Source: Ceratodon purpureus
Taxonomy: Eukaryota > Streptophyta > Bryopsida > Pseudoditrichales > Ditrichaceae
NCBI GenBank assembly: GCA_014871385.1
Contig: CM026426.1
Location: 82,503,566 to 82,567,565, forward strand
Direction of reading: 5' to 3'
DNA length: 64,000 nucleotides
Below the pieces are notes generated by a model, which saw nothing but the letters and a program-made list of their open reading frames with translations, searched no databases and was not told where the DNA came from. This document shows positions 20,562 to 56,269 of this stretch, piece by piece. The position numbers were made by a program, and so were the translations under genes. Positions within the stretch are counted from its first letter, which is position 1. Every line of letters starts with the position of its first letter.

Positions 20562-20587
20562 TACTCCTAGAGGGATTTCTACAGGAG

Positions 20588-26415: not shown

Positions 26416-26509
26416 GTAAACTATGAGGACAATAATTTTACTTGCACAAGGGAGCTCGTCCGATAAGTGCGTTCGATAGTCAGATAAAAAATCGTCCGTC
26501 ACATCCGTT

Positions 26510-28542: not shown

Positions 28543-28797
28543 ATGACCATATTCGTTATTTTGAGACAATTTCAGAACTTTGAGACTTTTTGAAGAAAAT
28601 TTCAGCAATTGATTTTAGACAATTTGAACTTTATGTGACTTTCTAATTATAGATTATCCTTGACTCGAGGATAATCTTCCTATATATAGTCAAAATATTT
28701 ATGACAAATATAGAATCAATTAAGAAATCAATGAAAAAGCTATAGTTAAGCATTCAATTGAGACCATGAAAAGTCTCAATATATCAAATATGGTATT
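28543..28797 (+). mobile_element. MITE 2 with the large-element termini
   Basis: This is a 255-bp element with an AATG duplication (28539-28542 and 28798-28801). The left end ATGACCATATTCGTTATT and the right end match each other at about 20 of 25 bases, and match the 15.2-kb element's termini. An internal GATTATCC...GGATAATC hairpin and overall similarity link it to MITE 1. It lies just upstream of the split DUF7869-type gene. Confidence 0.88.
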
Positions 28798-34839: not shown

Positions 34840-35230
34840 TATGCCAATATGCCACCAACAATGAGCAGATGTGCAAAGGAATGAAGGAGGTTAGTTTGAA
34901 GGATGCTCAGAAGTCTCTGCGATCCTGCATCTCTTGGACCAAGAAATCAGGAAAAGGACTTCAAGAGTGGGACAAGGCCTGCATCGACGCGGGGCTACCG
35001 ACAAGAAAATTGAAGACACATGTGAAGACACGCTTTGCCTCTAAGGTGGTGCTATTCCAGGAGACTCAGGAGTATGCTGATGCTATTAGCATTTGTTACA
35101 GAAGACAGTCCTTGAAGCTGCAAGCTCGCGTTCCGAGTGGAATGACATGGGCAACTGCAAGAACCGTAACTCAGACCCTAAACCCAGTTGTGCAACAATG
35201 CGTGTTGAATCAAACCCGCGGGTACTGGTT
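34840..35230 (+). pseudogene. hAT copy 2, third exon
   Basis: After a GAGCAG acceptor the frame reads VCQYATNNEQMCKGMKEVSLK, then WDKACIDAGLPTRKLKTHV and TRFASKVVLFQETQEYAD, the middle section of the same hAT family. The last part, from about 35.13 kb, drifts out of the expected reading. The intron before it (33226-34839) is T-rich and holds no gene. Confidence 0.7.
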
Positions 35231-35238
35231 GCTTTCAG

Positions 35239-36498: not shown

Positions 36499-37691
36499 CA
36501 TGTTCTGTATGACAGTTGGAGGTATGTGGAATTTACTTGTGGATTTTTTATTGATCCTTGCTGCTTGTGTTGTATCGAGCTGCTTGCTGTCATGTAGTGG
36601 CAATGAAGGTTGCTTATACTCTTGTTACCATCTTAATTATTGCCGGGGATGGGTGGAATGTAACCAAATTGAGGATTATCCGTCGGGACATGGTTTGATG
36701 ACATGGTGCGGAGTATTCTGAATGATTAGGTTTCATTTGGCAGTGTCAAGAAGTTCGAATAACTGCCGATGATACAGGCTACACATGCATTCCGGAAAAG
36801 TTACAATGAAACTGAGGTCCAGGAGCTGATATGTTTGAGAATGATGTTGCTTCCAGGGAGCATTGGAGCGAGGCAGGAATCGATTTTGAGTTGCAGTGGC
36901 GGTGGATTGCACGTGTACCCTTTCGTTTGGAGCACTTTGCTTGATCAATTGTTGTTGCAGCGCATCTTTACGCGGCTGCCCTTTCCAGAAATTAATCAGC
37001 TTCGAAGTCTTTCCAAGCTGTCAATGTACGGGCATTCAGTGAATTAGCTTTCGATCATGTGCTGGTTGCCGTGAATTTGCAAGGATTGGCTTGGGATTCA
37101 GCTCACTGCTCCACTTTAAATTGGTCATGTTAATGTTTGTTCGACTCTGCTATTCATGTTGTTGTAGCTTCACTGCATCTGTTGGATACCGATTTGTGTC
37201 AAATTCTCTTATGTTTTGTTCACCGGCATATGTGCTGGGATGATTCGAGCTTGTGATGCGCTGGTTTTCTGTATCATTTCAAGGGCTGGAAGGGTATTGC
37301 TGAGTGAATTGTTTGTTTCTGCAGCTATTGTGACAGTGTTTTTGTGCATGTGGTATCGTTGAGTTGCATGAGTTTGAGGTTTCTGACTGTCAATGTGTGG
37401 TGCGCCCAGTCCACCCATGCGATTTTTGTTTAGCACCCACTTGCTGAAGTCTTCTCTTTCAAAACTATGTTGCTTTGTAAGTTTCGGTTGATAAGCAGCA
37501 TTGTAACTGACTCATCCCTGTGTCTATGCAATTTGTGTCGGTGTTGCCAAAAAAAAACCCTGGCATGTGTGAATGTATTGCAAAAAAAACCCTAGCACAG
37601 TGTGAATGTGTTACAAAAAAAAAAAAAAACCCGAGTTGATAATGGACTGTTATCAAATGTGTTGATATTCATATTCATATACTGTTTGGAA

Positions 37692-38555
37692 TTTGCAGCA
37701 TTTGACGTTATTCATATCAGTACCATATTTGTGAAAGTTGGAAATCTAGAATACCATGTACCCTACCCAAAGAGGCGGAGAGTAAGAGAGGAATTAAGTC
37801 GTCCAGGTCCAGGTGAACGTGCTGCCGAGGTCGAAGCCCTAGAGGTAGAAAGACTAGTTGCTGCTAGTGCAGCTTGGGAGAGAAAAGCAAGGCAGAGAGT
37901 ACGTGACAGGGAGAGGGTAGCAGAGTCTGTAGTTCTAGCTCATGACAGGGCGGAGCAAGCTTTAGCTCAGACTTTTAGAGTGAGAGAGAATAGTAGTATA
38001 TCGTTGCGAATCTGTCAAGCCACTATTCAAGAGTTCAAACAGTGTCCTAATCTAGTTGGGCGGAGAGATGTCATGGAAAGGGTCCTTCGTCATTCTACAG
38101 TTTCTCCCTTTCTGCGTGATTGTTATCACTGTCCACAAGAAGCCCGAGCTAGGGACGAGTTCATTGACAACTTTAAGAATGAGCTTCGTTTAGTGAAGGT
38201 TGCAAATTCTCATGATCTGTTAGCTCGGAAATCAGCTCTTTTAGATGCCGAAGTTAGTTTCGGCTCCAATGTCCGAGTGGGTGCGTTGTCTAGAGTTCAG
38301 GACACAACTAAGGAGAGTATTAGCATTGCTTTGAGAAGGAGGTTGCCAGATGAGGATTCTAGTGGATCACTACCAAAGTTACGTTTGTCTAGGCAGCCGA
38401 GGGCTGGTCTTTCTGATTATGTCAAAGAGTGCATACTCCGTTGATGGGAGATACAGACCAAAGTTTCTTTGAACAAGAAGGATATTGTTAGGCACAGAAT
38501 AGGACGCAAACTCTGACTTCCACCTCATCCTACTCATTATCTCTGTGAGACGCAA
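37692..38555 (+). pseudogene. N-terminal part of a split BAH-like/DDE-like gene
   Basis: Open from about 37692 (after an ATTTGCAG acceptor) to 38441. The sequence is basic and then helical and coiled: VEALEVERLVAASAAWERK, CPQEARARDEFIDNFKNELR. Beyond the stop at 38442, the same frame still shows VSLNKKDIVRHRIG and HPTHYLCETQ, with a donor after CAA at 38555. The next expected segment begins 15.8 kb away at 54345, in the same phase. The 15.2-kb TIR element lies between them, inside the intron. The combination resembles uncharacterised plant mobile-element proteins that I recall but cannot name. Confidence 0.6.
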
Positions 38556-38645
38556 GTTTTCCTATACAATAATTCTAACTACTTTTTAAAAACCCTGTTG
38601 TAGATTCTACGGAGCGTGCTTCGACTTTTGATGTGTTCACTAGAA

Positions 38646-38957
38646 TGTACTATTCCTCCACCTTTGTCATTAAAGAATACATTACGTCGCAATAGTCTAT
38701 GCTGTGTACTTTCAGTACCTTGCCTCGGGGTACATTTGTATTCTCTTGGAATATTCAGATAATTTTTGTACTTTTGATGGTGTTAGAGTACAGCCATTTA
38801 CGCGATCAAGGTTTAGGGTGTTCCGAGGTGTACTCACACTGTACTAGTTCTACTGAATGTAACAAAATCATGTACACCTTGTATCCTTTTCGAACAATGT
38901 ATCATCGGATGCTAATTTCATAGGTAGACTAGAGTATCATTTGTATCACACTTGTAC
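38646..38957. repeat. GTAC-rich intronic tract
   Basis: Ten GTAC tetramers lie in 312 bp (about 1.2 expected at random), several in inverted pairs such as GTACTTTCAGTAC at 38706-38718. The other side of the same intron (54215-54344) has five more in 130 bp. Confidence 0.7.
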
Positions 38958-39804
38958 TTTGAAGTAATTCAGTAATTTCAAAGTTATTCAAAGAACACCT
39001 TATTCGTTATTTTGGGAGATATTCTTGAATTTGGGAAATCAGCGTGTAGAGAAATGGCCACATTCCTGCTTTCCCATTTACTTTGACCTCGGGCAAATCA
39101 ATATTGAATTATTAAAAACACTTTAAAGGAACAATGAGGCCTATGTCATTTAGGTCGAGTGGACCTAAATGCACGAACATACAGGAGAGAACTAAATAAT
39201 GTTCAATGATTCTTTAAGAACATATTTAAGGAAGGATGATGGTTATGTCATTTAGGTCGATCACACCTAAACGCAATATTAAACAAGAAAGAAGAGTAAA
39301 CCACGTTTTTGTATTTATAGTAGGAACTATCCGTTACCTTTCTAAACCTAGGTTTTGGAAAAGGCAATGTCCAATCACATAAAATACATTTGGAATTTTG
39401 AAGAACGCGAAAAGAGTGCATGACACTGAGGCAAAAATGGCAGACGAGAAAATTGGACAAACAGTTCAATCGTTTTATTCGAAACATAATTACACTGAAA
39501 TAACACAGAGAACTCTTATAATCCTCTCTCCATTGTCTGCACCATTGCTATACACTACATACTATCCACTATATGGTTATGGAGTCCCCCCGTAAGCCTC
39601 AATTCTTGACTTGAAAAATTCCTGTTGACGCTGACGTGTCCACGACATTCCCTTGACCTGCATCATTGGACTATCAAGAAGACGTTGCAACTTCTGTCTA
39701 TGCCAATCACCAATGCTTGACTCTGGCAGAGAGTGGCGACGGGTACAAGATGGTTTAGAGTGGGAGTCGCCAGACTTCCTTGCCCCGGATCCTGTAGTTG
39801 TTGA

Positions 39805-40434
39805 TCATAGCCTCGGCATCTGGAAAGGGGATAAATTAGCATTGGGAGGAGATTTTGGTTTAGGTCGAATCGACCTAAACTCCTGAGTGCAAGTGTAAAG
39901 GTCGAACGGACCTTGAAGGAAGCTGACATAAGCTAGCACAAACCTAGATGAAAGTAGAAAACGATCAATCATTTTAGGTGGCTTCGAGCTAAAATAAGGG
40001 CATATAGGAGGCAAGAAAGAGATGCGAGCAGCTACCATCACCTCTTGACCTAGAATTCTGAGCGGATAGACTAGACGAATCTGACTGAACAGATAGTCGC
40101 AGATCAATTTTGTCGTTGAAGTCTTCATCAAACTCCAGACGGTTATGGTTGTGAACGTTGACAACCTTCGAAGGAAATAAGCACAATTTGACCTGACACA
40201 AACAAGCTTGGGGCCGACAACTGCTGGCTTGGACGCTGAGTGGATGTTAAGGTCATGGCTAACGAATGATTGTCCACGGCACTTAGGAGTATTGGAGCAG
40301 AGTATTCCATTGAGGTCGAGGACAACGTTCAACCAACCTCTCTGAGGACGCGTCGGGACAGGTCTCAATTCCTCACTAGAACTTACGTCACATCCAGATG
40401 CCTTGCGCACCTGGAGAGGAAATACCGACGACAA
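39805..40434 (-). pseudogene. FCP1/NIF-like phosphatase domain, element B copy
   Basis: After a TTTCCTCTCCAG acceptor on the minus strand the protein reads VVLDLNGILC, then VGPKLVCVRSNCAYFLRRL and ITVWSLMKTSTTK, then a less conserved part. It matches the domain at 4560-5353 in order and spacing. The DLNG motif places it with plant FCP1-homology HAD proteins. After about 150 residues the frame appears to drift, so the C-terminal half of the domain is not recovered. The gene points to the left terminus of the element, mirroring element A. Confidence 0.7.
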
Positions 40435-40465
40435 ATGGACATTACTATATTATACTAGGACAGAG

Positions 40466-40768
40466 TTATACGAATGATACAAAGAGGACAGTCGCAGGGC
40501 AAGTCAATATCCAAGAAAACAGTGCAACAACATATAATGATGGATGAAATACCTGAACATCCTCGGCTTGTTCTTCTACTACATCCCGATCCTCCACATG
40601 TCCCATTGACCCTAACGAATCCTGGGGTTCATCGTCAGGAATGACCTCTACGCAGGGTGATAAGGTAAGAGCACATTGGGCCGTGACATCTAAATCCTTA
40701 TTTGTGCGTACAGGCACATCCGCAGTTTGGGCCATGACAACATCATCCATGATCGAAATATCGTCCAC
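40466..40768 (-). pseudogene. Acidic exon of the FCP1-fusion gene, element B
   Basis: A minus-strand frame starting MDDISIMDDVV, with PDDEPQDSLGS and EDRDVVEEQAEDV. It is acidic and probably disordered, and lies between the linker exon and the phosphatase exon. It corresponds by position to the acidic part at 3804-4098 in element A. Confidence 0.4.
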
Positions 40769-41023
40769 TTCCTCATGTAATTTTTGACCTGGGCATTGCT
40801 AAAGAACTATAGAATCATCAGAGAGTGATCAAGGAAGCTTACATAGAAAGGATTGATAAAAAAGTTGAACAGTTTAGCTCCAATTGAGCTAAATAGCCCA
40901 TTTGTATTAATTACAGTCGCTTTGGTACAAAATGCACATTTCAGTGAACTACTCCAGTATTAACACCTCATCTATAAATTTCTGAGTTCCAAAAATCTAA
41001 GTTTGGAAGGGACCTGAAGATAT

Positions 41024-41857
41024 CTAGGGAGCATCTCTCTGAGTCTGATTGTGGGAGGGAGAATGGGGTGCGCTCGGACTAGGGTCACGCCTGACCAGGT
41101 CGGTGCAATGATGGCTTGGCACAGGCACTAATGGAGGATTCGGATCCGACTCTGGCAATTTTGCACCACCGGTAGAGGAGCCCAAAATCTTTTGTACTCG
41201 CGAAGTAGGCGGGGCACTATCTATCGGCTGGACGTTGGCCAGAACTAGACCCGCATTCGGGAAAACAGCGGCATGCCCCATGCCTTGCAGAGCACCCTGC
41301 AGTGCCGCATGCACGGTCTTGTTTATATCCAAGCTCCGCTTCTCCATCCTATCTATTAAGGACTTCTCCCTTTCCTTGGACGCCAGTAGTTCTGCAATAA
41401 GAACTTGAATATCCGGATCGGGAGCGGCTCTCCTCAACGGGAAGGCTTGCCGTGCTGGTGGGTAGACCCTCTTTTTCTTCTGTGCCTGTTTCCCAGTACT
41501 TCGCCCACCACCGATCTTTTTCCCACTTCCTGATCACAGCTCCGGTGCTGAACCCGGTCTCTCTTCGTCTGTACGCGTAATATCCACCTTAGGAAAATCG
41601 AGTCTTCTCCCCACTCCACCTTTAGATGCTGTCTGACTCACCGGATCTGAAGGCGGACCATCGCCTTCATTGCTGATGTCTGCAGTACTGGAGGAAAGGG
41701 TTTGTTCTTTGGTAATGGCATCTTTCTCCACATCTACATCGTCACCGTCCTCGAGAGTTCTGCCTTTCCCTTTTTGCACGGCTTTGCTATATTCCGGAAA
41801 ACATCCCTTATCGATATAATATGCGTTGACATGAAAATCGATTGGGTCTAGAGTCAA
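41024..41857 (-). pseudogene. Linker exon of the FCP1-fusion gene, element B
   Basis: Minus-strand pieces 41534-41857 and 41024-41437, with overlapping frames between. The first contains PIDFHVNAYYIDKGCF and then an acidic tail. The second has a short helix (VLIAELLASKEREKSLIDRM) and a Pro/Ser-rich end. It corresponds to the linker exon at 2447-4098 in element A, with little sequence conservation. An intron with two palindromes separates it from the A-domain exon. Confidence 0.45.
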
Positions 41858-42069
41858 ACCAAGGGACTAGGCATCGCTCATATTACCTCAGTCACTATCA
41901 TCCGCGACGACGAAAGCCGAGATCGAGAGCCTCTGAAAAACGGAAAGCAAGGTAAACAAGGTTTAGGTCGACTTGAGCTAAAGTGTAGAAGTGTATGCAT
42001 ACACGATCCATAGAATCTAAAATGTAGAACAATTTAACTCGACTCGAGCTAAAGTGTGGAAACACTTAC

Positions 42070-43482
42070 CATGGCAGCGAGTAGGGGCTTCGTTCGACCA
42101 TAGAGCTGATACACTGCACCCCAGTGATTGCAGAAAGTGTCGTGGACCTGGAGGTAGAACTCCATCCTTAACCCCGATGGATTGGTCGAGTACTTCCTTT
42201 CGTTCAACTTCATGTTGTCCTTGTACAGTGGGTGATCCGGCGTTCTTTACTTGCTCAAAGGTTCTGGCGGTGACACTTCGTTCTCAAGTAAATCTGTATC
42301 AATGAGAAACAAGAGTCGGACGGGTTCCATCGCGATTCTGCTCTTTGGGAGGTGTCCACCGAGACGCTCGTTAGGAGCGGGGAAATATTCAGTATCGACT
42401 TTCTTGCGACCACTCAAGGTGCTACGCTCTACCCACGTTAGCACTTGGGCAAAGTCCTTATCGTCTCCGCAAATCAGAAGCCCGTGCCAAACATCGTTGA
42501 AATGGGGCTGTCCATAGTCATCGACCATATTGAAGAATGCCATGAAGAAGGGGTTCTCCAAAGTGTAGTTATGCATCGTCATGTAGGTTAGGAGGAACCG
42601 GAAGTCGATGATTCCCAATGTGAGAGCGTCGCACCACAACCTCCATACATTGGAGGGCCAAGATCCAAAGGTAAGTCGAGGCTCTCTAATGAATGGGAGA
42701 AACCACATCTGAGCTGATGGACTTTGAAATCCATCTCGCACCTGAAGGAAGGTTCTAAAGAACTCAACCACACATAGGGAGAGATCCTTGGTGGACGCGT
42801 TGCGGTACTGTGTAGCTCTAGAGTTAGTCCAGTATGAGTCCGGAATACTCCAATCAAGCAAAACGTGCTTGGACTCCTTGGAGACATGGTAAGCCTTCTT
42901 GAACTGCTTCCAAGCCGGTACATCAAGTACGCCTCTCTTGATTAGATGTAGGGTCGGTTTTATCTTGTTCAGTTCACCCTGTGCAACAGCCTTACGTTTT
43001 CTCTGCTCTATCCACTCCTTGACCGTGTAGCAGTCCTCCAGTACATTCGAATTCTGCTTAATGACAACCTTCGGATACTTGTACTTCCGACTTGGCTCAG
43101 ACTTATGCAAGATGTGTTTACAGAGCCTCTGGTGATCGGCTTCTGACAAGTTCCCCAGCCATCTGAAGAACTCCCTCGGAAGCGTTCCATCCTTGTCTGG
43201 AACGAACCTGGCACTCTGATGATATTTCTTGTGAGGTTCTTTGCTGTCGGGGTCTATGAGACCACCACATGCCGCAGGCGCAATCACCTCCTTCCACAGG
43301 TCCCAAGTTTCATCACTGGATGTGATAATCTTCAGCTCGTTTGTCAGGGAGATATTGTTCTTCCCTCCCTTCTTCGCCACCAGGGTTTGATGCTTGGCCA
43401 CATCGATCATTGCGAAGCGCTCCCTGATTGCTTCCACAAAGTTGTGCATAGACACAGGAACTACCTTAGATGATGCTTTCAC
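42070..43482 (-). pseudogene. A-domain exon of the FCP1-fusion gene, element B
   Basis: On the minus strand the frame is open for 411 codons (43482-42247) and continues in a shifted frame to an ATG|GTAAGTG donor at 42070. Landmarks shared with 279-1608 are NFVEAIRERF near the start, KYKYPK, NPFF, PAPNERLGGH and the closing FYLQVHDTFC. The longest open piece of this family in the window, it may encode a folded domain of roughly 400 residues. I find no match to a named domain. Neighbouring introns carry 21-bp palindromes at the same relative places as in element A. Confidence 0.68.
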
Positions 43483-43576
43483 GCAATTACACTTTAGCTC
43501 GAGTTGAGCTAAAGGGCGTTAGATATACCAGTTCATTGAAAACAAACAAGATTATATACATTTAGCTCGACTTAAG

Positions 43577-44305
43577 CTAAACTGCACATGCTAATGAGTC
43601 ATAGAACTTACGGCGTAAGTTTAAGGATGGATTTCTTCTCGCCCCTATAGTCCTAGACTCGGTTGCACTAGCGTCGGCATGTTTTGGTTGCGGCTTTTCA
43701 TACTTTAGGCACACTATCCTAGCGGCGATGATATTGCTTACCCATGTTAGCTTAAAGGGTGCCAGATGGTTCACTCGATTATAAAATGCTGAGATCTTCC
43801 GCAGCTTATCATAATCATGGGTCCAAACGATGTGCGCGTCCCACCTCCTGAAGTCCCTCACCGACTCCTTTGTTGCGTTATCCTCGATGAGTGATTTGGA
43901 CGCCGCAACGCTGTGTTGTCTGTTGATGATCCAGAATGTACAGCCCTTTAGATCACCTTCTTCTCGGGGTCTGAGCTCCGTGTCTCGCATCACACACAGG
44001 GTTTGCTTCTGTGTTCTATCCAGCATGTTCATCAAGTAATTCTTCATCTCCTCCATGCCTCGCTTTTCATATGCACGGATAGTCCAATGGGCCGGTGCGG
44101 GCTTGCATCTCGTCACGTCCACACTAATCTTCTTTGGTTGCCCATCCTTTTTGAAGACAAACTCCTCATGGCAATCAGCAAAGAAACCCTGGTAAATTCG
44201 ATTGGCACTATCAAAGTCCAAGACCTCTCCAGCCTTGTTCTCCTTCGGAAGTTCCACGAGAACAGAGTTCAAACTTGTTGCTAGGTCCTCCGCAAATAAG
44301 AGCAA
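43577..44305 (-). pseudogene. ParB-like region of the FCP1-fusion gene
   Basis: A 242-codon minus-strand frame. CTFWIINRQHSVAASKSLIED resembles the G-x-H-R-x-x-A signature of ParB/sulfiredoxin-like folds (usually DGQHR or GGQHR), and KLRKISAFYNRVNH is the sort of helix that follows. Nuclease or CTPase activity cannot be claimed from this. It is joined to the upstream exon by a frame change at an A-run near 44.34 kb. The equivalent in element A would lie before position 1. Confidence 0.45.
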
Positions 44306-45058
44306 GTCTTTTTTGAACTTCGGCTTCTCAGTCTTCTCCCGAGGCCTTTTTTCTTCGCTGGTGAGAGGGGTGTGGGAGTTGCAGAAGCGGTCCGACTTTG
44401 CGAAGGAACTATTGCTCTGCCCCTACTGCGTCCGGACTGTTGGCTTTCCAATTGGCTCATGCTTGCTGTCACTCGAGACACGTCTATTGAAGATTTGCCA
44501 AGGGTTAGCCTGGCCTTTGCCTCCGTTGCGGCGAGCGTAAGGCTGTTGACAACATTCCTCAGTTTCCAAGCTAGGAACTTTGCCTGGAGAGTACGTCCAT
44601 CTTTTGTTGCCCATTTCTTCTCTATTACCTCTTGCCTCAATGTCTTCTCTATCTCATCGAAGCGAGAAGGCGACAGACTTTCCATTAAGGATATTGGGTC
44701 AAAGAGGTTCTCTGCTACGTCTACTACCATGGTGAAGAGGTATATATTATTCCCCATAGATGAGCACATAAGCTTTATAATCTCTTTCCCCTTATGGTCA
44801 AACTCAGTGACCTTCGTTTCCATATCGATGACCTGAGGATCTTTGACTTCAGCCTTGAAGATCGTAGCGAATGTAAGATACAGGGTGTGCGGGATCCGTC
44901 TTAAGGTCCAACGTTTCATCTTCGAGGGGTCTTTGAAAGTCCACGCCTCAAATGTCCTTGAGTCATCCCCGTCATCATCATCCGAATCTGAATTTGGTAC
45001 AGGCTTGAAGAAATGTTGTAGCGCCTCAAGTACCCGAGCTTTCTCCTCACTGCAAGGA
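44281..45058 (-). pseudogene. First recognisable exon of the FCP1-fusion gene, element B
   Basis: A minus-strand frame with WTLRRIPHTLYLTFATIFKAEV, TEFDHKGKEIIKLMCSSMGNNIYLF, an EVIEKKWATKDGRTLQAKFLAWKLRN helix and a Ser/Arg-rich end. It is helical with no recognised domain. It starts just downstream (in gene direction) of the palindrome cluster at 45.09-45.53 kb, which therefore lies in the 5' leader or first intron. Confidence 0.5.
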
Positions 45059-45154
45059 GGAGACCTTAAACATTAGACAAATTTGAAGCCATTTAGCTCG
45101 ATTCGAGCAAAATGGTGGTTCAATTAAGAAGTATAAAACATGACATCCTAGCAA

Positions 45155-45279
45155 TTTAGCTCGAGTCGAGCTAAACTGCAAGGGGATCATGGTAGGGGTT
45201 GAGCAGTTTAGCTCAACTCGAGCTAAACTGTACATCTACCACCATGATTCCCTTGCAGTTTAGCTTGACTCGAGCTAAA
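45155..45279. repeat. 125-bp nested inverted repeat built from three palindromes
   Basis: Three 21-bp palindromes (starts 45155, 45207, 45259) are spaced 52 bp apart. The sequence between the first pair (GCAAGGGGATCATGGTAGG) is the reverse complement of that between the second pair (CCACCATGATTCCCTTGC), with a few differences, so the whole 125 bp folds on a centre at about 45217. Confidence 0.85.
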
Positions 45280-45397
45280 CTGCTTGGACTTTAGAAGGGA
45301 GCACTCACAGTTTAGCTCGAGTCGAGCTAAACTGTAGGTGACTCTCCTAGGGAATAAGGGGGAGTTGCACCTCTATTTGAGCTCAAGTTGAGCTAAA

Positions 45398-45464
45398 CTG
45401 CAGAGCTCCCACAGTTCTCAACTTATAAATTAGCTATAAGTTGAGTATTGTGAAAGCTCTGCAG
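45398..45464. repeat. 67-bp hairpin between two palindromes
   Basis: Outer arms CTGCAGAGCT/AGCTCTGCAG, then ACA/TGT, then CTCAACTTATA/TATAAGTTGAG around a 7-base loop AATTAGC. It is flanked by further TTTGAGCTC and TTTTGCTCGA palindromes, extending the imperfect symmetry to about 130 bp. Confidence 0.85.
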
Positions 45465-45539
45465 TTTTGCTCGACTTGAGCTAAACTGCAAAGCTCCTTA
45501 CAGTTTGGCTCGACTTGAGCTAAACTGTTGACGTTGTGT

Positions 45540-48200
45540 ACGGAGATTTATACAGAATTGGCATTCGGTTTGTTACCTCTCTGCCATTTCCAGATGGATT
45601 TATTCAATTTCTGGAACGAACGTCTTGTCAACTGTGTTCTTCCCGCAAAAAGTAATGGTTGCAGAGGATCTGAACATGCAATCTATTATTGAAATGTTGT
45701 AGAATTGTGCCAAAAAATATAGGTGAATAGTACAAATATACTTGGATTGCATATGTACATTTCCCATAATATGCTAACAGGATCTAATAAGCATACAGTG
45801 AAACATGTGAAGGTGAGCATTGGCGCCAAATTGTACCCAATTCGGAAAAAGATGTGATTGAATATAACTTCAACTACAACACCAACTACATCTGAATGCA
45901 GTCACCTCATCCATAAAACCTATCAATTCCTTCACACAGCAATGATACTCATGCAGAAATAGTCCTAACACACATTAAAAATCACTTGAAATGCATGCAC
46001 TCTGATCCCAATACAAATAACACGAGAATTCCTATCTAAACCTAGCAATTACAGTCAAACATTGAACAAACACAAGCTGAATCCAATTACGGAGACTCAA
46101 ATCCTCCATGATTCTGTGCATATTCATTGTAGAGACTACTAGACATGATACGACAGGATTCGATTACACGATTTGTTGTCCACAATATTAATTTCCAACC
46201 GAATTTGCAAAAAAGTGACTGAATTTACGATATAGATAGCACCGATAGAAAAGAAACACACAGACAAAACTGCAAGAAGAGGGGGAAGATGATGACTGAC
46301 CTAGAAATGGTCTCAACAAACGGTTACTTTGTACACCTCCGCAATCTCCACTACACTCCGCATTTGTCGATCCAGTCAGAACTCAATTACCGCAGTCTAT
46401 GCAAATCACCGCAAGTTTGTCCTAACAAAATACATGAAACCCTAAAAGTTTTGTAGCTATTCAAACACTCGGACGCACAACCCTCAAAGTATATCCCTGC
46501 AACAAAGTATGCACAGAATCCCTAAAACAATTTCGGTATACACCTCAAAAAGCCTCCGCGCACAAACCCCTCTCAACCATGCACCAAAAACCTAAACCTT
46601 CAACATCGAAAACCCTGTCAACTAATCACGTCACATTGAAACAACTCAACGCCAATGGAGCTAACAAGTCTATAACGTAAAACCCAAAGAACTCGCGGGA
46701 AACAATCCTAAAACACAAAGCAAACTACTACAAGGAAACAAATTTGCGCCACAAGAAAGCAAACTCGCGCCACAGAAAAACCCAGAAACAAGAACAATGG
46801 ACAAGCCCGTGGACGAGGTCAGGGGTGGAGGTGAACTGTTCCTCGCCCCTGCGGGGGCCGAAGACCGCGCCGCCTAGAAGATAAACCCCGTCACCGGGGG
46901 GTCCAAAGCCGTCCCCACGGCTTAAGAGTTTTGAATTTAAATTTAAATGCTAGGAGTTGAAACTATTGGAATTATTGGTCTTTAGGAGTGGGAAAATAAA
47001 TTTATGTGTATTGATAGGTAAGAATTAAAATTGAGGCCCAAATAAATTTCACGCCAATTTGAAGGTTTTGAAATAATACACAATTTTAAACTTTGAAGTA
47101 GGCAAATTATTAACAATTTTTAAAGGATGACAATGTTTAATTTTATTCAAGAGAAGTAAATATTTATGACATTGAATGCCTCGAAACATTGTCATGAAAT
47201 TAATTAAATCTTCGTATATATTAAAATTAATTGATTCAATCAAAATTGAACTCCAATTGTTATTTATGTATTGATGCACGGTTTAAGAAATTTTATCAAA
47301 TTGAGGTCTAGTTTATATTCCAAATTTTTTAATATTAATTGAATATGAGACGTCTACAAATTTGATTAGCATAATAATCCTTTCAGATATATGAAGTTAA
47401 AATTTGTTTGAAGACAAATTTAATTTGACTACACAAGAGTAGAGTTTAAATAATAATTTGTAATTTCATAATGAAAGCATCAAATTTGAATACACTATTA
47501 GCAATGAAAAGTAATTTACTATACTCTAATTGGAAACGTATATACGTAAATGTTATCATCATATTCCTAAAGTACATGTTAGTATCATAATTTATCTATA
47601 ATATAATAATATATTATAGTATACTAAGGTACTAATATATTCATTTTCAATTTTATATTTAATTAATGATTATAGTACGAGAATAATGAACTATATTCTA
47701 ATATATATAAATCTTAAAATGATATACAAGTATATTCAAGTATATAGACGAAGTACATTGTTAAAAATAATAGTATTAAATTATAGAATTCAATTCATTT
47801 ATTATGGCAAATTATTTACATTTTTTAGAAGATTGAATTTTTTATATTTATTCATGAGACGTAAATATATATACCATGGTATGCCTTGTATGATTGGCAT
47901 GTAAATTACATAAATCTAAATCAATTCATTAACGTTCTACCTTGACTTATATTTGTACAATTTTATTACATTCTAATAAGAAAGTGGAATATTTGGTTCA
48001 TTCATATAATTTCAAAAAACAAAATTCATAATTCATGGATTCAAACGAAACGTCTTAAATCAATGATCATAATTATAATTGTAATATTAATATGATATCG
48101 AGTAAGGCTTTAGATGCTTGTGCAAGCATACAATCCCATTAATCAATTCTTTAATACTAAATTAAAATGCCACATTTAAGTAAATCTGGTTTTTCAAAAC
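45540..48200. other. Middle of element B: AT-rich, no gene, one GC hairpin cluster
   Basis: From 45.54 to 46.8 kb there is moderately AT-rich DNA without coding frames. At 46845-46921 three short GC hairpins occur in a row: GCCCC-TGC-GGGGC, CCCCG-TCAC-CGGGG (46886-46899) and GCCGT-CCCC-ACGGC (46908-46921). From 46.93 to 48.2 kb the DNA is strongly AT-rich with no supported feature. Confidence 0.55.
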
Positions 48201-48254
48201 TCCACATCGGTCAAAGTCCTGTTATCGACTCTGGTCAAAGTCGGCTTCGTTACT

Positions 48255-48569
48255 ATGGTACATTCGGCCTCCTGGTCGAGCCCCTTCATAAGCATAAGTT
48301 CCTTTGAGCGACGAAACAGCTGTTCCATTCTTAGTTTCCCTTCTATTTCATCTGCTTCTAGTTCATATGCCGTGATGAGGAGGGCAGGTGGTGGTTCTAG
48401 GGTGTCAAGTTACCCGCCAGACGAGTGGGAGCCGGTTGTTTCTCCACAAGGAGTGGAGGAGCTTCGTCCGTGGTTTATGACGGTGGAACGTGCCCGTGGT
48501 CGCGCCGTAGCCATTCCCGCGTGGAACCGCATTGCACGCCTAATGCAATTAGGTGTGGAGTGGGATTAG
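48255..48569 (+). pseudogene. ELRPWF-family fragment 2
   Basis: From the ATG at 48255 the frame runs 104 codons and contains VEELRPWF, IARLMQLGVEW and, past the stop, a worn stretch (MEIMNASD and LLTSGE) that matches fragment 1 at 12339-12620 (IEISDASG and LTSEES). The N-terminal part is Ser-rich. Unknown function. It lies 2 kb upstream of the DUF7869-type gene in element B. Confidence 0.45.
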
Positions 48570-49745
48570 ACTCTTGCACATTCTCCATAGCAAATGGAGA
48601 TTATGAACGCTTCCGACATTAAGTTTCTCCTCACCTCCGGGGAGGTCTTTTCTACGGCTGATTCAAATGAGGAGGAGAGCGGGGATTTGGGGAGCCCACC
48701 ACATCAGTGACGAGGTGAAATGTTGTCTCCTCGTAACCCTTAACCTCGCCCTTAGTTCGATGTTTTCATAGTAATAGATTACGGTTGCTGTATGTCTTGC
48801 ACAGAATTCCATTGCCTGATGCTGAGTTCGTGGTGAGTGTCAAGAGGATGAGTCCCTGCTTTTGACCTGCACTTTTCGGTTTTAAACCCTAAACATCATA
48901 CCATCTGATCTTCTTTTTCTCTTTTCTCCTAAACTTGCAGGCATCTTTGATATACTCCTGCGGTTTAACTTCTTGCTGCTAATCAGCTCAGATATAGGAA
49001 GGGGACTTCAGCAAGTAGTTAGCAGGACCGTTATATCATACGATATTTGGCAACCATATATGTAAAAACAGATCACTTTCATCTTTTGGTAACTCTTGCC
49101 GAAGGTGACCCCCGTGTGGGTTGTAAACTATTTTTGGAATGGAATGCCTTCAAAACAGAGTTGTTTTGAATAAAAAACAGAGTTTCATTTAATGCTTTCA
49201 TATTTGTATATTTCGTATTCTAATATTTCCATGGTTTAATATAGATTTAGTAGTAGCAAGTCTAGAAAATATTAAATACATTTAAAATCATACTTCCCTC
49301 ACTTTGATTCTTAGAAGTCCAAAAGTCAGAAACTAATGTAAATTTATAAAGTTATATGAGTCAAAATATCTTCTCATATGTTAAATACTACAAATATATA
49401 ATTATTCTAAATATCATAAACGAAAAAACAAGTCTACACCATTCATGGCGAAATGAACACATTATGAAATAAATAAAGACATAAATAAACATACATGAAT
49501 ATATATATATATATACATGATAATTATATCTAACTAAATATTTAGAATAAAGAAATAATTCTAGATTTAAAAATATATCTACCTAGGTATATCAAGAACT
49601 ATTCATCAACTCACATATAATGATTTGATTTCCCACATCATATATAATAATGAAATCAAGCAAAAATACATACTCTAGTACATGGAGATATGAATTTTCG
49701 AATTAATTTTATTCCATATACGAGATATTTAATGTCATTAAAAAT

Positions 49746-49830
49746 GCCTAAACCCTGTACCCTAAACCCTTAACCCTGGACCTAAGACCCTAAACCGATA
49801 ACCCTCAACCCTAAACCCTAAACCCTAAAC
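49746..49830 (+). repeat. Interstitial telomere-like repeats (CCCTAAA)
   Basis: This is a degenerate tract of CCCTAAA-like units ending in three perfect tandem copies (49809-49829). CCCTAAA is the Arabidopsis-type plant telomere unit. The tract lies inside the 15.2-kb element, in AT-rich non-coding DNA. Confidence 0.8.
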
Positions 49831-50427
49831 GCTAATAGAAGATGATAAGTTTGGAGTCAAAAGTCAATATTCTGTCTTGCGCTATGAAGTGTCCAATCCA
49901 TCCCATTTAATACAATTAATGCACCAAATATTTTGTATCTGCATCTATGTAAAGGGCCAAGAAGTATGGAAAGTTGTATTTCCCGCGCTCGCTCACACCA
50001 CCAAATGTAGAGGGACGAATGGTCATGCATGATTCCCGCCTATTTCAAAACTGAAGCAACATGAAAACGGTCACACGTTAGAGAATGACCTCTGGAATTG
50101 TCCCCGCTCGAAGTCTTTTCTCTACTCACTTGCTTTTCTCACGTGTACGAGCTCTCGGCGCTCACCTAGAGTTCGTTGTTTTCTGGATGGAAGCTGTATT
50201 GCGTCGTTTCTCTTGTACGTCTTTTCTTCAGTTTTCTCCAATCATCAGCACACATCATTGATTTTTGGTTGTTCTATGCTTGCGATTGTTGCAATTCTTG
50301 GTGTATTGGTAGTGTCTTTCTTTACTACTGGAAAACGTTTGAGAGCGGAATCCGTCAGCGTACTCTGACTCTGCGATTTTGAATTCCGACGATGTGAGCA
50401 CTTATTAACGCGCCGATTTTTGCGGAA

Positions 50428-53400
50428 TGCAGTTTAGCTCAACTCAAGCTAAACTGCACGGCCCTGTTGATCCAGATCAATTTAGCTCGAGTCGAGCTAC
50501 ACTGCGCCTGAACTATGGTCTCTGACTGGCAGATGAAATCTCTTCAAGGAGTATAATATATTCTCATATAAATGGATCTGTTGCATTCAAGGTACAATGG
50601 ATTTCTCCTCAGATGACGAGGTACCGGTTGAAGCGCCTATAAACCCAGAGCTTCCAGACTTTGTGGTTGTATCCTCAAGATTGTGGCAAAACAAGACTGT
50701 GACAATTTACAGTGACGACAATATCCCTTTAGCAGAGGGTTTGATCCATATCCCATAGTCCAGCTTGGTATCAGACATGGTTGGCCCCCTTGGTGATTCC
50801 GTTGTCGTCGTCTAGGTATCACGTTCGTTAGTCGAAGAAGAGTGAGAGGATGATTGGAGGTACTATTTCAAAACGTGGCCTATCAGCCACGTCTATTTGG
50901 ATGGAGTTAGTCTACAGCACCATAGCGAACGTAATGTTTATAAACGTTGGATTGCGGAGCGTAACCGATCCCTGGGAGATCGTACCCGATCCTATGATAA
51001 CTCCTCTAGGAATACCCCCCCACCTATATCACGTATCGCTGAGTTTCAGATGACGCAGCCGTCAATTAACTTTGTATCGGCAAACACGTGATGCGCTTAG
51101 CTGTGCGTCCAACACTATCCCGGAGATAAAATCTCTACTCTACGGTCGCGTATGTACGACAAGACCACAGTGCACTTCCGAAACCTCATAAAACTCGACG
51201 TGCATAGACTGATTCACAAGAATTCAGTGGGGAGGAGTGTGGTGATTCCGGAAGGCATAGATGTTTGCCCCTTTGCCTGGATGAAGATTATGGGAGTGAG
51301 CTCCAGTACATTCTATAGAAATGCCAAGTATGCTGCTGCTAGTTTTGAAGCTCAATTTCACGGTAATACTGGTTTCCGTAAACCTAGAAATCACACAGTG
51401 GTAGCAATTGCGGTCCTAGGGGCCATCCTTGACAGGCATGCCGACCACATGCCCCACAAGAGTCGTGTTCTGCCTACAGGGGAGACAGTTGTTGCTAAAG
51501 TTCTACCTTCCAATTTTCAAATGGAAGGACCAGATTCCATACCTCGATAAACATCTAGCCGACTCTGGATTGCCTTTTATGTCCGCTTTTAACTTGAGCA
51601 AGATCAAGAGGCTTAGCTATCCAGAATATTACGCCAAACGGGCAGGAGACAACTTCGCACGTTGCTCAAAATGTGATGAGTTCCAGTCCTAGAAGAAGTT
51701 GACATCAACAGGCTCTCAAGCATCACTATTATGGTCTAGGAAAATGAGGCTGCACAATGACTCTGCAATGGCGCATAAGGACTTGTACTACCTAAATCAA
51801 TTCAGGTCGAAGGCTACTCCTCATGAAGTTCTTACAATTATGCATGACAAGATGGACCACTCCAAGACAAAATCCATCTCCAGGGAACTCTTTCAAGAAA
51901 ATCCGTCTCACCCATTGTATGCCGCGCTTTTGCATGGTTTAGAGATGTGTCTGGATCCTCTTGGCCCTTCTCCTGAGGTTCCTGTTGCTGCTAAACCATT
52001 ACCTCCCATTCTTAACGTCCAAATGGATAACGCTGTCAGCGATTACAAGAATAGATTTGTATTTTCATATTGGTCCCTATTAGTCGCGAAGCGGGTGTTT
52101 CGCGAAGTGTACGTGAACTTCATGCTGGTCGGCCATACTCATGACGATATTGATGCCCTTTTCGGACTATGGAGCATGGCTTTGCGGAGGGAGGACTTCC
52201 CCACAGTACCTCTCCTCATGAAGTCCTTCATGAAAAATGAAGCTGTACCAACAATTCCTCATCTCATTCAGGAGGTCCCAGATTTCAAGAAATTCATCGC
52301 AGAGTGGATGCTTGATGGCGACGATACGTTAATGGGTCACACTAAAGCTCATTAGTTCAAATTCTATGTAGATTCTTTAGGATGTCCAATCATGAAGTAT
52401 AAAATCTATTGTCACGACGACGGCTGGTTGCCAAAAGGAGATGGTTGTGGCATTAAGTTGTCGAAGGAGGATTTAGAAGTTCGATCTTTATGGCCCCGTG
52501 GTGTTCCTGGTGCCGTGGCGCCTCGCGAGATGCGGCACCTGCCTGATGTGATTAAGGGGTTGTCGGGTTTTGTAGATCATTATGAAAGGCTATCTTCTGA
52601 TTCAGTCGAGTCTAGAAGAATCTATGAGCCACTCTCATACTACTCGAACGATGTTAAAGAGGCTCTTGCCATCCCCTTTAATGCAGTCCCTACCTTGGGG
52701 CACGGTTTATGGCCATCCACTCGGCTCGCTCACTCCGTCGAAGACGAGTTTCAGGAAGATGGAACTTTGCGCGAGGAGTTCGCAGAGGATGATCACTTTG
52801 TTGGTCACAAACGAGATCGCCCAGGACCGTCATTCCGTATTGCGCGAGACCTTTTTGGAGGGTACTTCTTAGCATTACAACCCTGCGATGAAGACGACTG
52901 TCCTTTCTACCTTGCGAGGGCCTTGACCAATCCTAATTCGAACCCTGACCTCCCAAACACGATCCAAGTAGAGTTCTACCTTCCAATTTTCCGTGATGAA
53001 AAGGTTTTGAAATTCTATACCGGTTGGGATGTGGATGGGAGACTTCGTTGGACAGTTGAGAAGGATGTACCCGAGTCGTGGCAGAGTACTGATGCAGTCA
53101 TAACTGCTTGGAAATCCAAAGTGAAAAAAAATGTCAACGAGCGGGGGCTTGGCAAGGATCCAACGCTGAAGATCCCACTCAAACAATTGGACATTATAAA
53201 GGCCTCCTTGGAGAGATTTGTGTCTCCGGATTCTGAATAAACATGTAGCTTTCAAGTTGGTAGTCTTGAAGTTCTGAACTAAGTCAGATCACTTATATTT
53301 GTTTGAAGACGACTGAACTGAATTTCGTTTGTCCCTTCATCCATCATTATGTTTTCTAGACAAAGGTAGATGTTTAGCTCGAGTCGACCTAATGAGTTAT

Positions 53401-54165
53401 AGCGTATTAGTTCTAGCGTATTTATGTTTTGAATACTAGCAAATTACATATATTTTGTTGGAGGGAACACTACATAAGTGTTTCAGTCCCTTCCTTATTT
53501 ATCATGTGTACCACATTATAGGCCGCAGTTTAGGTCGAGGCGACCTAAACTGCATTTGGCGTTGAAGTTTGTACTTTACGAGTGCGGGATACCAACAGGT
53601 CACCTATAGTTCTTCGTGTAGATTTTTACTTAGTACCCTAAAGCGTTGATTCTATATCATATGTACTGCCACATACCAGCCATTTAGGTCGAGGCGACAT
53701 CTAGCGCTGAAGTTCCTAGTTTGGATTTCTGAAGTAGAGCCGTTAACATACATTTGTTGGCATGGGACTATACTGAAGTCCGTATGTTCTTTGATTGTAT
53801 ATCATATTTTCGAAACTGTAGGCAACTATGTTGGTCGAGGCAACTTGAATGTTTGTACAGGTTTGAAAGGGCCCGTCACGGATTCAACATTTAAGGAGTG
53901 TCGACCTAAATTGTATTTCCACACATATATATAATATAAGTTTGCCCAAGATATCCGTTGGGTCCATTTCTTGTTATATGCATGATGTTCATTTAGGGTG
54001 GTTCGACCTACCTTGTACTTTTTCATATATTTCTAGTAAACCATCCAGTTTCTCATTTCCTATTACTACTGTGTGATCATCTCCCAATTTAATGGAAATT
54101 GCTTATTAGCTTTTCCTTGCCAAGTATGAGACCATTGTGCCCATTTTAGCTCGACCTGACCTAAT
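50428..54165. repeat. Dispersed 21-bp palindromes, right part of element B
   Basis: Copies: 50428-50458 (31 bp with TGCA extensions), 50481-50501, 53373-53392, 53525-53553 (29 bp, TTTAGGTCG arms), 53683-53703, 53890-53910, 53991-54013 and 54144-54165 (mixed arms). All flank the DUF7869-type gene; none lies within it. TTTAGGTC copies predominate close to the terminus, as they do near the left terminus. Confidence 0.8.
50597..53240 (+). pseudogene. DUF7869-type gene, probable DDE-like enzyme of element B
   Basis: From the ATG at 50597 the product begins MDFSSDDEVPVEAP. Later parts read CPFAWMKIMGVSSSTFYRN (recognition-like helix), CSKCDE (metal-binding-like), KMDHSKT, LNVQMDNAVSDYKNRFV, VNFMLVGHTHDDIDALF and a C-terminal region of about 280 clean codons (52392-53240). 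KMDHSKT, QMDN and HTHDDID each offer an acidic residue in the order of an RNase H-like DDE triad; this is my inference. The domain name is from memory. A few interruptions spread over the first 600 codons make this copy probably non-functional. It is the best transposase candidate for the element. Confidence 0.65.
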
Positions 54166-54344
54166 GCAATTTTTTGGGAGATGATAAATCTCCCAAAATA
54201 ACGAATATGGTGTTAAAGTACTTGAATTTGTACTAGGATGTGGTTATCTTGTAGAATATGTTCATTATTAGTACTTTCAGTATCCGGAATGGTAGTTAAG
54301 TACTAACAGTTAGCAACGTGTACTACGTTGTGATGTTTTTACAG

Positions 54345-56181
54345 ACATCGTATTTCCAACGTTTCCTCAAAGTCCACCCTGAATGCAATGTTCGACAGAG
54401 GGCATTCAAGTGGTTGAAGCTGTGGTGGGTATAGAAATTAAAAGAGAGGAATATATGTTGCTGCATCTATCATGTTGAGATGGACATGATGAAGGCTGGA
54501 TTAATCAATCTCAGGGACAAGTTGAGGGGTTTTCATACCTTAATATGCTCACAATTCTGTTTTCAAGCACATTACAGCCATGTGGGAGGCTTGTCTATAT
54601 TTAAAGGGAGAGTTCCAGAGATGGCATAGGTTAGAGTGTCTTATGGGTGATTGTACACAATGTGGCTTTCATTTATTCAAGGTCTATCCATTAGAGTTAT
54701 AGGATTCTCAGTCGTTCCTACTGAAGTGAAAGTGCTTTGAGTACTACGAGGTTAGAGTGCATGCAGAGACAGGGCAGCCAAAGAAAAGATTGAGAGAGGC
54801 ATTCAAGGAAAAGCCCGTCCATGAGTTTCTCTCGTACATGGAGAAGACAGTGACTACTTTTGTGACACACAATTTCAGAGCGAGGTGGCAAGATGAGCAA
54901 TGTCAACTGATGATGAAGAATATCCCAGAAGGAGTTCTTGTGTCCCATATAAACTATGCTGAAAATTATACATTTGCAATTCAAAACGAAGTGCAAAGCA
55001 TGTATTACTTCAGCACTAGTGTTACAATTGTTGTACATATTACAATGTGGTGGGAAGGTGACGAGATCATGAAGCAAACGCATTATTATATTTCAGATGA
55101 TAAGGCACATGATTCTGCGTTTGTGCAACATTGTTTAATGTTGCATTGGGACTGGGTCGTTGATGCTGGACTTACCATAGAGGAACACTGGGTATTCAGT
55201 GACGGCTGTAGTAGCTTGTTCAAGTGTGCCACCGCCATGTTTTTTGTTGCTTGGTATCCGTCGCTAACTAGGGGGTGCTTGATGAGGTGGAATTTTTTTG
55301 AATCAGCTCACGGGAAGGGGGAGTGGGATGGTGCAGGTGTGGTGGTGAAAAGGGCGTTGAGAGCCAAACAGATTCGGAATCCCCAGAGACCGCTTCAAAA
55401 TGCTACACACGTTGTCGAATTTTTGAAAGAAAACTACTCTGAGCGTGTTTCTAGGACATACGCTTAGTCAACAACTGACCCAATCTCTCGCGTTTTTTGG
55501 AACATTGGAGAATTTGAAGTAGATCACAGAGATAGTAGTATCAGATGTCGCACTTTGCCTGGCTCTAAAAGTTTGCATTCTGTTATGGGTTTCTCTTTTT
55601 CTGACCCTACTCTTCTTAGAACTCGGGAGCTATCATGCTTTTGCATCCGTTGTGTCGATGGTAATTGGAATAACTGTGAGAACTCGTCTCATGTGCACGA
55701 GTGGAAGGTACAGCGTCTATAGCCACTTAGTACGGGCGCTGTAGCAAGCCAGATTGATGTGCTCGATGACGACACCAACTGGATTCACGATGGCATTTCC
55801 CTGGAGATAGGTGATTTGGTGTGTGTTGGCGACAATTTCATGATCCCAGCGGAGAGTGACAACGAAGACGGAGTTGATTACTACATACTGCAATGTCAAC
55901 GTACGAAATTTGTATTGCAGGAGAGTTTGTCATGTCCATGGGGCGGTGTTTTTTCTGCTGGGGACAAGGTCATCCGAGCTAAGTACTATAAGAAGTATGG
56001 AAGAGGTGATAAAACTTACGTGTTTTGTGACAGGGCCGTTGATGCACATATAGATGCTCATTTGGTCAGAGCTTGCAAGTTCCCAATGGTTCTTGCAGCC
56101 CATAGAGTTAAAGGCAGCCTCGTTTACAAGATTACAGCTGAGTCAAAGAGAATTTGTGAGGATGCGTTGAGGGACTGGTAG
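54345..56181 (+). pseudogene. C-terminal part of the split BAH-like/DDE-like gene
   Basis: Begins after a TTTTTACAG acceptor at 54344 with TSYFQRFLKVHPECNV, then KERNICCCIYHVEMD (Cys-rich). A clean 237-codon stretch (54757-55467) contains VFSDGCSSLFKCATAMFF and WNFFESAHGKGEWDGAG followed by KRAL, which resembles the core of RNase H-like mobile-element enzymes (SDG and HGKG motifs). The last 140 codons (55759-56181) include YYKKYGRGDKTYVFCD and look BAH-like. A CFCIRC cluster lies between. It is interrupted a few times. Confidence 0.6.
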
Positions 56182-56269
56182 GCATTGAACGAAGAATAGA
56201 AGTCCACAACATACCATCATAACTGTATTTCCTAAAGCTTAAGACAAAATCTCAATGCCTTTGCCATCT

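Follow-up and report, generated by a model that had tools for sequence, protein, structure and literature searches.

To our knowledge, the only close parallel to the element described here is VANC of Arabidopsis, a protein that recognizes family-specific tags in its own non-coding DNA. Our element occupies positions 38994 to 54214 of a 64,000-nucleotide stretch of Ceratodon purpureus contig CM026426.1, analyzed at its full length and called the window throughout, and it carries two genes (gene 1 and gene 2) as well as a set of 21-bp palindromic sites, or dyads. VANC carries DUF1985. Element-encoded proteins with many short subterminal sites are also known from En/Spm (CACTA), whose TnpA additionally affects promoter methylation, and from Ac; here, by contrast, the sites are spread through introns, promoters, and the whole element. 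VANC21 binds short family-specific motifs in the non-coding DNA of its own VANDAL elements, namely in introns, between genes, and at the termini, and methylation is lost (PMC5735166).

The element resembles the VANDAL/VANC system in layout, yet it is not a member of it. VANDALs have a non-transposase element protein and family-specific motifs that are dense in introns and the remaining non-coding DNA and rare elsewhere (PMC5735166, PMC10398659), and family-specific motifs are likewise found here in non-coding parts and rarely outside them, both in the window and in one metagenome-assembled genome (MAG). VANC motifs, however, are 8-9 bases long and arranged in one-orientation arrays (PMC5735166), whereas those of our element are 21-bp dyads. 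Gene 1 also departs from VANC in having a ParB-like box, a methylase-like end, and an FCP1-like module, and the DUF7869 gene, the 4-bp target-site duplication (TSD), and the structure of the ends are unlike those of Mutator-like elements (MULEs). No Pfam match to VANC/DUF1985 or to a MULE transposase was obtained in the element frames scanned.

Three other systems share single features with the element. Sola2 transposons have short terminal inverted repeats (TIRs; 12-21 bp) and AT-rich 4-bp duplications with the TSD AWWT (PMC3627910). Compared by description only, our element could sit near Sola2 by the length and composition of its TSD, which is also 4 bp and A+T-rich, and its TIRs are also short; the match is to length and composition and not to AWWT itself. 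The TIRs are 27 bp long here, however, and neither an accessory gene nor dyads appear in the accessible part of the Sola2 description. Kolobok and piggyBac elements follow a TTAA target rule (PMC9587614), and membership in either was rejected because the three duplications seen in the window (AAAG, TTAG, and AATG) differ from one another; all are 4 bp long, each ends in G, and none is TTAA. ParB-type domains fused to N6_N4 methylases are reported to be enriched in phages (PMC12704722). Gene 1 is similar in that a ParB-like box is followed by a methylase-like motif, a homology that is only suggestive, but it differs in its additional C-terminal FCP1-like module and in its eukaryotic transposon setting. 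No known name was found for the element family.

The stretch from 38994 to 54214 is a complete mobile TIR element with a 4-bp duplication. As the first-pass annotation had proposed, its inverted termini (38994-39020 and 54188-54214) are identical at 26 of 27 bases, with AAAG immediately outside each, and comparison with shuffled windows places such ends beyond chance. A 24-base end consensus, allowing up to 6 mismatches, matched 9 sites in the window, whereas 20 plain base shuffles of the window averaged 0.15; of these nine sites, eight are element ends used here, and the ninth (37719, 6 mismatches) was judged to be a chance match. The TIR consensus had no exact match in the genome contig collection searched. 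The ends are of two types that differ in the placement of a second TTTGRGA copy, which is direct on the left and inverted, so as to form a hairpin, on the right. The direct arrangement, with its spacing, is repeated in the visible end of a second full-size element, E1, and in the left ends of two miniature inverted-repeat transposable elements (MITEs; 11830-12069 and 28543-28797), both of whose right ends are of the hairpin type, so that each MITE has one end of each kind. The two MITEs align end to end with a mean column identity of 89% and have unrelated flanks. Because their TSDs are perfect yet different, ends of this type move in this genome, duplicating 4 bp. The left end of MITE 11830-12069 is worn, with 7 of 24 mismatches to the consensus; since shuffled windows give 1.75 matches at that level, this end rests on the alignment to the second MITE and on the duplication. 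The left end of E1 lies beyond the window, and its visible part is without gene 2. A third small pair of related ends was seen at 8401-8538 (5 and 6 mismatches; imperfect flanks, TAAA/TAAT; no second motif), and it is perhaps a relative with another end code.

Near-perfect termini had also been read as a sign of recent movement, which does not follow: the transposase holds both terminal repeats alike, so terminal repeats are no clock. The accompanying description of the genes as worn is borne out by in-frame stops in both window copies of gene 1 (that of the main element and that of E1) and by several in-frame stops, a frame change, and the loss of a stretch present in an intact relative in gene 2. 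The main copy is thus broken in both genes, and relatives with open frames were found elsewhere.

The dyads had been absent from the first-pass annotation and are added here. With a consensus taken from repeats in 37000-56500, a spacer of 5, and up to 3 mismatches to TTTAGCTC/GAGCTAAA, we counted 22 copies of the 21-bp dyad TTTAGCTC-N5-GAGCTAAA in the main element, 11 in what can be seen of E1, and none in the other 41.8 kb of the window (32 kb leftward to E1 and 9.8 kb rightward). Even with spacers of 2-8 allowed, five shuffled windows gave 1-2 dyads each at up to 3 mismatches and none at up to 2; at 4 mismatches with the same spacers, matches appear outside the elements too, at the level of the shuffles (21-28 per shuffled window). 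Dyads span the main element from 155 bp after its left end to 49 bp before its right end, and none of the 22 overlaps a coding block, where 9.0 were expected (0 of 20,000 placements as low). The coding blocks were hand-set from homology, open frames, and intron edges, and of the frame 39805-40449 only the part matching NIF was included; the dyads at 39859 and 39973, which lie within that open frame beyond the match, were therefore scored as non-coding.

The dyads of different elements belong to different classes. Dyads of the main element have a GASTC-like centre, 18 of 22 with G at -2, whereas those of E1 read A...T there (10 of the 10 scored; the copy at position 4 was too near the edge and was omitted from the per-position table) and are mostly of the ACNGT type. 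When E1 was compared with the main element by blastn, the best matches were mostly dyads and terminal repeats, along with one short FCP1 stretch, and the remaining matches listed were short, with E values of about 1 or worse. The MITEs carry yet another class, TTATCCTTGACTCGAGGATAA, which differs from those of both the main element and E1, sits at the middle of each MITE, and lies in a stretch among the best conserved between the two copies. The dyads look like sites in double-stranded DNA rather than RNA hairpins, because the central base has no strand preference (13 G versus 12 C on the sense strand of GASTC-centred sites) and the symmetry continues through the centre. Two arm variants were also noted, GGTC/GACC mostly near both ends (39149-39993 and 53373-54165) and GCTC/GAGC mostly in the inner part (40873-50501); both arms of a dyad mostly vary in step, and some copies are mixed.

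Relatives of both genes were found in a prokaryote genome collection. A degenerate GHTH[DE]DID pattern retrieved 14 contigs, three of which (L008, L013, and L015) encode DUF7869 relatives by tblastn; the other 11 reached an E value of 0.15 at best. L008, also handled as L022, is contig CADCWO010000071.1 (C71), filed as part of the Synechococcales MAG AVDCRST_MAG81. It holds an open DUF7869 frame of 943 amino acids, preceded by three TTTAG dyads (0-1 mismatch) and followed by three that fit less well (2-3 mismatches). Three further contigs of this MAG carry gene 1 relatives: C243 (L024), C269 (L025), and C74 (L026). L024 and L025 have large open gene 1 exons and TTCAGCTC-N5-GAGCTGAA dyads (TTCAG class), located in introns 1 and 2, and one profile match to L024 contains a stop at its extreme edge. 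L026 has a diverged gene 1 and TTATCCTC-N5-GAGGATAA dyads (TTATCC class), the class of the MITEs in the window. Among the 386 genomes of the same phylum, AVDCRST_MAG81 was the only one with further gene 1 relatives. The distant DUF7869 genes of L013 (1-5162; 28% identity) and L015 (1-6432; 24%) are on contigs filed as Bacteroidetes MAGs, and these lack TTTAG dyads at up to 3 mismatches and dyads of any of the three classes at up to 1. Nothing was confirmed for DUF7869, gene 1, or the dyad in the viral contigs scanned, and phages and plasmids gave no match to the three tblastn queries.

Dyad classes go with element families. Across the 4.8 Mb of the MAG, at up to 1 mismatch, there are 18 sites: 3 TTTAG sites on C71, 11 TTCAG sites on C243 and C269, and 4 TTATCC sites on C74. 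No other contig of the MAG has any of the three classes, the backward control gave none, and none of the four contigs carries a second class at that threshold. The 8 introns inspected were intron 1 of L024, L025, L026, and the main element and intron 2 of L024, L025, E1, and the main element; each contains one or more dyads, and in 7 of the 8 the first dyad follows the GTAAG donor by 16-30 nucleotides, the distance in intron 2 of E1 being 72. Since their introns are of the spliceosomal type (GTAAGT...CAG), the four contigs are taken to be eukaryotic and misbinned. The cyanobacterial MAG AVDCRST_MAG81 in GTDB is, on this observation, contaminated by intron-bearing contigs.

Gene 1 had been described as a single gene combining a ParB-like region, a large domain, and an FCP1-like phosphatase. 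The predicted order, from ParB-like box through large domain to FCP1, holds with open frames and GTAAG introns in L024 and L025, although the FCP1 part could be confirmed in L024 only, as L025 ends before it. Codon comparison showed purifying selection on this gene: the ratios of nonsynonymous to synonymous substitution rates for three exons of L024 and L025 are 0.14, 0.11, and 0.26. Between the main element and E1, whose large domains have 30% residue identity over 367 aligned codons, agreement is 0.54 at second codon positions and 0.32 at third (about 0.26 in shuffles), and this excess at second positions indicates that selection maintained the protein during a long divergence of the two. 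The NIF domain (PF03031) exceeds its curated cut-off of 21.8 bits in the main element (25.6), E1 (23.9), and L024 (53.8), so an FCP1-type domain is present as claimed; phosphatase activity is doubtful. The FCP1 catalytic signature is DxDx(T/V), and the corresponding position reads D-[LI]-N-G-I-L in all three copies aligned. As the second catalytic Asp is replaced by Asn, the module probably serves in binding rather than as a phosphatase. Our literature search found no paper linking NLI interacting factor with DNA transposons or FCP1 with a transposase.

The remaining parts of gene 1 have homologies that are only suggestive. L024, L025, and L026 share a box, K-F-x-[IL]-I-N-G-Q-H-S-V-x-A-S, that resembles ParB box II in the right register but has GxxH where ParB has GxxR (GQHS in these three contigs; RQHS after N, giving NxxH, in the main copy). 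An hhalign comparison of the ParB-box region with a ParB profile gave P 0.0027, and the reversed query gave P 0.64 on the same profile. The reversed ParB-box query, however, reached P 0.0017 against the methylase profile, so hhalign scores of this size are not to be trusted. ParB_N (PF02195) had no match in any of the four gene 1 copies scanned, nor did any ParB model in Pfam, NCBIfam, or PHROGs match the copies scanned; of the ParB-like region first proposed, one box and a weak profile match are what stands. Where the large domain ends, it resembles methylase motif I, and near that end PF01555 (N6_N4_Mtase) aligns in L024 (E 0.033; 14.6 bits against a cut-off of 26.7), with no match in the main element, E1, L025, or L026, and hhalign picked the same stretch (P 0.022; reversed query, 0.32). 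As hhalign input, of 20 methylase loci we extracted 15 and retained 12, and of 20 ParB loci we retained 11; loci that were empty or in the wrong frame were discarded. The signature of N6_N4 methylases is [DNS]PP[YFW], and it is absent from exons 1 and 2 of L024 and L025 and from the main and E1 domains. An AlphaFold model of the ParB-box exon (predicted local distance difference test score, pLDDT, 32) was too poor for comparison.

Gene 2, which faces the other end, matches DUF7869, and with the FCP1-type gene this confirms by Pfam the two-gene content first described. It has 62% identity over 456 amino acids to the open frame of L008, whose own PF25273 match has an E value of 1.6e-42. DUF7869 copies share DN...KN and GHTH[DE]DID, and the main copy and L008 also share HDKMDHSKT. 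Codon-position bias points to purifying selection here too. By its place and conservation, gene 2 is the probable transposase. Searches of PDB sequences gave no meaningful match for the element proteins, DUF7869 included; our literature search found no paper naming DUF7869, and its Pfam title states no function. Were this role borne out, the unstudied family would gain a function. Elsewhere in the window, a second, broken DUF7869 gene had no element ends or dyads recognized around it, and a fragment at 14425-14586 (-), similar to the DUF7869 gene at 52254-52403, was also without recognized ends or dyads nearby.

Taken together, we propose that the element is a two-gene, cut-and-paste-type transposon in which the gene 1 protein may bind the element's own dyads, regulating or un-silencing it; on the present analysis, our belief in this proposal is evenly balanced. 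Gene 1 would encode a nuclear protein of several domains: a ParB-like box, a large domain with a methylase-like motif at its end, an acidic and coiled-coil middle, and an FCP1-like module. This protein (or, less likely, that of gene 2) would bind as a dimer to the element's dyads, both those within introns and those close to the two ends or clustered at the promoter. The FCP1-like module could then contact the RNA polymerase II machinery, and the purpose would most likely be to keep the element transcribed against host silencing. Gene 1 is favoured as the binder because it is the non-transposase gene and has a dyad cluster at its own promoter; regulation or un-silencing is favoured because of the close VANC parallel; and action on its own family only is suggested by each element family having its own dyad class.

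More tentatively, and with rather more doubt than belief, the element may stand for a new eukaryotic transposon superfamily in which each family pairs a self-recognition protein with its own 21-bp palindromic tags, distributed over introns, promoters, and ends, and the pairs diverge together. If so, one genome would hold mutually blind families, each un-silencing or mobilizing only itself, through ParB-like, methylase-derived, and FCP1-like modules whose enzymes are probably dead. An unrelated-looking transposon, with another transposase and other protein modules, seems here to have reached the layout of VANC. At least four tag types can be compared (TTTAG/GASTC, TTTAG/ACNGT, TTCAG, and TTATCC), and the tag code is legible from sequence alone.

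Several observations weigh against the proposal of a two-gene transposon whose protein binds its own dyads. Which element protein binds the dyads is a guess, and the ParB and methylase readings of gene 1 are both weak. The window holds a single complete element, E1 being cut by its edge. Two dyads lie inside long open frames, one of the 11 in E1 (2807) and one in L024 (778). The MAG contigs are short and contain just portions of elements, and no convincing TIR was found on them: there was no match at up to 3 mismatches, and one match with 7 mismatches is at chance level. The reading of these contigs as transposons therefore rests on their genes and dyads. Finally, an AlphaFold model of DUF7869 from two alignment rows (pLDDT 39) was too poor for comparison with a DDE transposase fold.

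Among the alternatives, the most serious is that the dyads are sites by which the DUF7869 transposase, or a helper, finds, bends, and pairs DNA for excision, in the manner of the subterminal sites of En/Spm or Ac, with gene 1 as a passenger or helper. The DUF7869 gene of L022 is flanked by dyads on a 4.3-kb contig without gene 1, MITEs that have moved retain one dyad in a well-conserved stretch, and the dyad at 54145 adjoins the right end. Dyads are not concentrated at the ends, however, but lie in introns near donors and in the eight-dyad cluster before gene 1, and those of the MITEs are central rather than subterminal. We consider this explanation unlikely, though it deserves weight.

It is improbable that the element marks itself, with the methylase-like domain of gene 1 placing, or once having placed, methyl groups on adenine or on N4 of cytosine in the dyads and so setting the element apart from host DNA. 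Methylases typically target palindromes. The PF01555 alignment in the expected register, the agreement of hhalign on that stretch, and the phage fusions noted above are consistent with such a role, but the scores are near noise, the reversed ParB-box query scored better on the methylase profile, and the [DNS]PP[YFW] signature is missing from the exons and domains searched.

Action as RNA, through hairpins in introns or untranslated regions that influence splicing or serve as a source of small RNAs, appears quite improbable. Such a role would suit the presence of a dyad in every intron inspected, mostly close behind the splice donor, and the arms can pair, over 31 bases in intron 2 of L024 and L025. 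Against it, the central base shows no strand preference, the symmetry includes the centre, whose bases would have to stay unpaired in an RNA loop, and dyads also lie upstream and downstream of genes and in gene-less MITEs.

We give very little credence to a ParB/parS-like clamp, in which the gene 1 protein loads onto the dyads, extends along the element, and tethers copies to one another or to chromosomes. The box shared by L024, L025, and L026 and the many palindromes per element recall such a system; the ParB model libraries gave no match, however, GxxR is replaced by GxxH (NxxH in the main copy), and no ParA-like gene was noticed, although no search was aimed at one.

MITEs with such ends do exist in the window, but that two of them should face one another with unrelated genes in between is hardly credible and, within this one window, excluded, given one end of each type, a matching TSD, dyads only inside this interval, and in E1 the same gene beside the same end type.

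Table 1. Positions of the main element, its relatives, and their parts in the window.
Feature	Position	Strand	Remarks
Left TSD AAAG	38990-38993		Read from sequence
Left end, direct type, gene 1 side	38994-39036	+	27-bp TIR and a second, direct TTTGGGA at position 37
Four dyads downstream of FCP1 domain	39149-39993		39149, 39251, 39859, 39973; mostly GGTC/GACC arm variant
Gene 1	39805-45072	-	Broken by in-frame stop and frame change
Gene 1, FCP1-like (NIF) domain	40042-40341	-	PF03031 match, E 1.1e-5
Five dyads between gene 1 coding blocks	40873-43581		40873, 41962, 42033, 43493, 43561; four in introns 1 and 2
Gene 1, coiled-coil/acidic frames	41024-41866	-	Main element
Gene 1, intron 2	41930-42070	-	GTAAGT donor ~42070, acceptor approximate; two dyads; dyad(s) also in intron 2 of L024, L025, E1
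Gene 1, large conserved domain	42049-43460	-	Main element
Gene 1, intron 1	43461-43611	-	GTAAGT donor ~43611, acceptor not fixed; two dyads; dyad(s) also in intron 1 of L024, L025, L026
Gene 1, ParB-box exon	43577-44422	-	Main element
Gene 1, N-terminal part	44281-45072	-	Main element
Eight-dyad cluster directly upstream of gene 1	45092-45524		~430 bp; 45092, 45155, 45207, 45259, 45311, 45377, 45465, 45504
Dyad-free stretch between divergent genes	46930-49850		AT-rich in 4 of 6 500-bp windows (20-31% GC)
Two dyads upstream of gene 2	50433-50501		50433, 50481; also upstream of gene 2 relative in L022
Gene 2, DUF7869, probable transposase	50597-53240	+	PF25273 E 2.1e-29, match inside 51693-52355
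Three dyads downstream of gene 2	53373-54165		53373, 53529, 54145; 54145 just inside right end
Right end, hairpin type, gene 2 side	54172-54214	-	27-bp TIR and a second, inverted motif copy
Right TSD AAAG	54215-54218		Read from sequence
E1, right part of second full-size element	1-6955	+	Gene 1 relative, 11 dyads, direct-type end 6929-6955
E1, gene 1 relative	193-1338, 1462-1614; FCP1 4608-4910	+	Reads toward direct-type end, as in main element
MITE, related TIRs	11830-12069		TSD TTAG/TTAG; one central dyad TTATCCTTGACTCGAGGATAA at 11940-11960
MITE, same family	28543-28797		TSD AATG/AATG; identical dyad TTATCCTTGACTCGAGGATAA at 28654-28674
Second, broken DUF7869 gene	26480-27830	-	38% identical over 126 codons

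The dyad-free stretch between the two divergent genes is possibly a nested insertion or foreign filler. Within it, plant-type telomere-like repeats (CCCTAAA) were seen at 49747-49833. Together with the SET domain gene noted below, such repeats may point to a host of the plant lineage; tRNA and Rfam scans gave no match. A short frame at 48441-48644, also inside this filler, is related (48% over 68 amino acids) to one at 12384-12584, just to the right of the MITE end at 12069.

Several other genes or their remains lie in the window. hAT-like remains with DUF659 were seen at 19431-20609 (-), and residues resembling the hAT C terminus were recognized by eye at 35209-36498 (+); the sequences at about 20.6-21.1 kb and 35.6-36.0 kb are similar in inverted orientation. 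Related gene remains, 30-33% identical, occur at 15534-16022 (-) and 63089-63712 (+), the latter with a weak protein kinase match below the cut-off. A broken gene directly beyond the right duplication (54730-56181, +) looks transposase-like by eye (SDG...FK, HGKG...DG), and the two pieces of it that were scanned had no Pfam match. A SET domain gene with a cysteine-rich pre-SET-like stretch, SUVR/SUVH-like by eye, lies at 56393-57480 (-).

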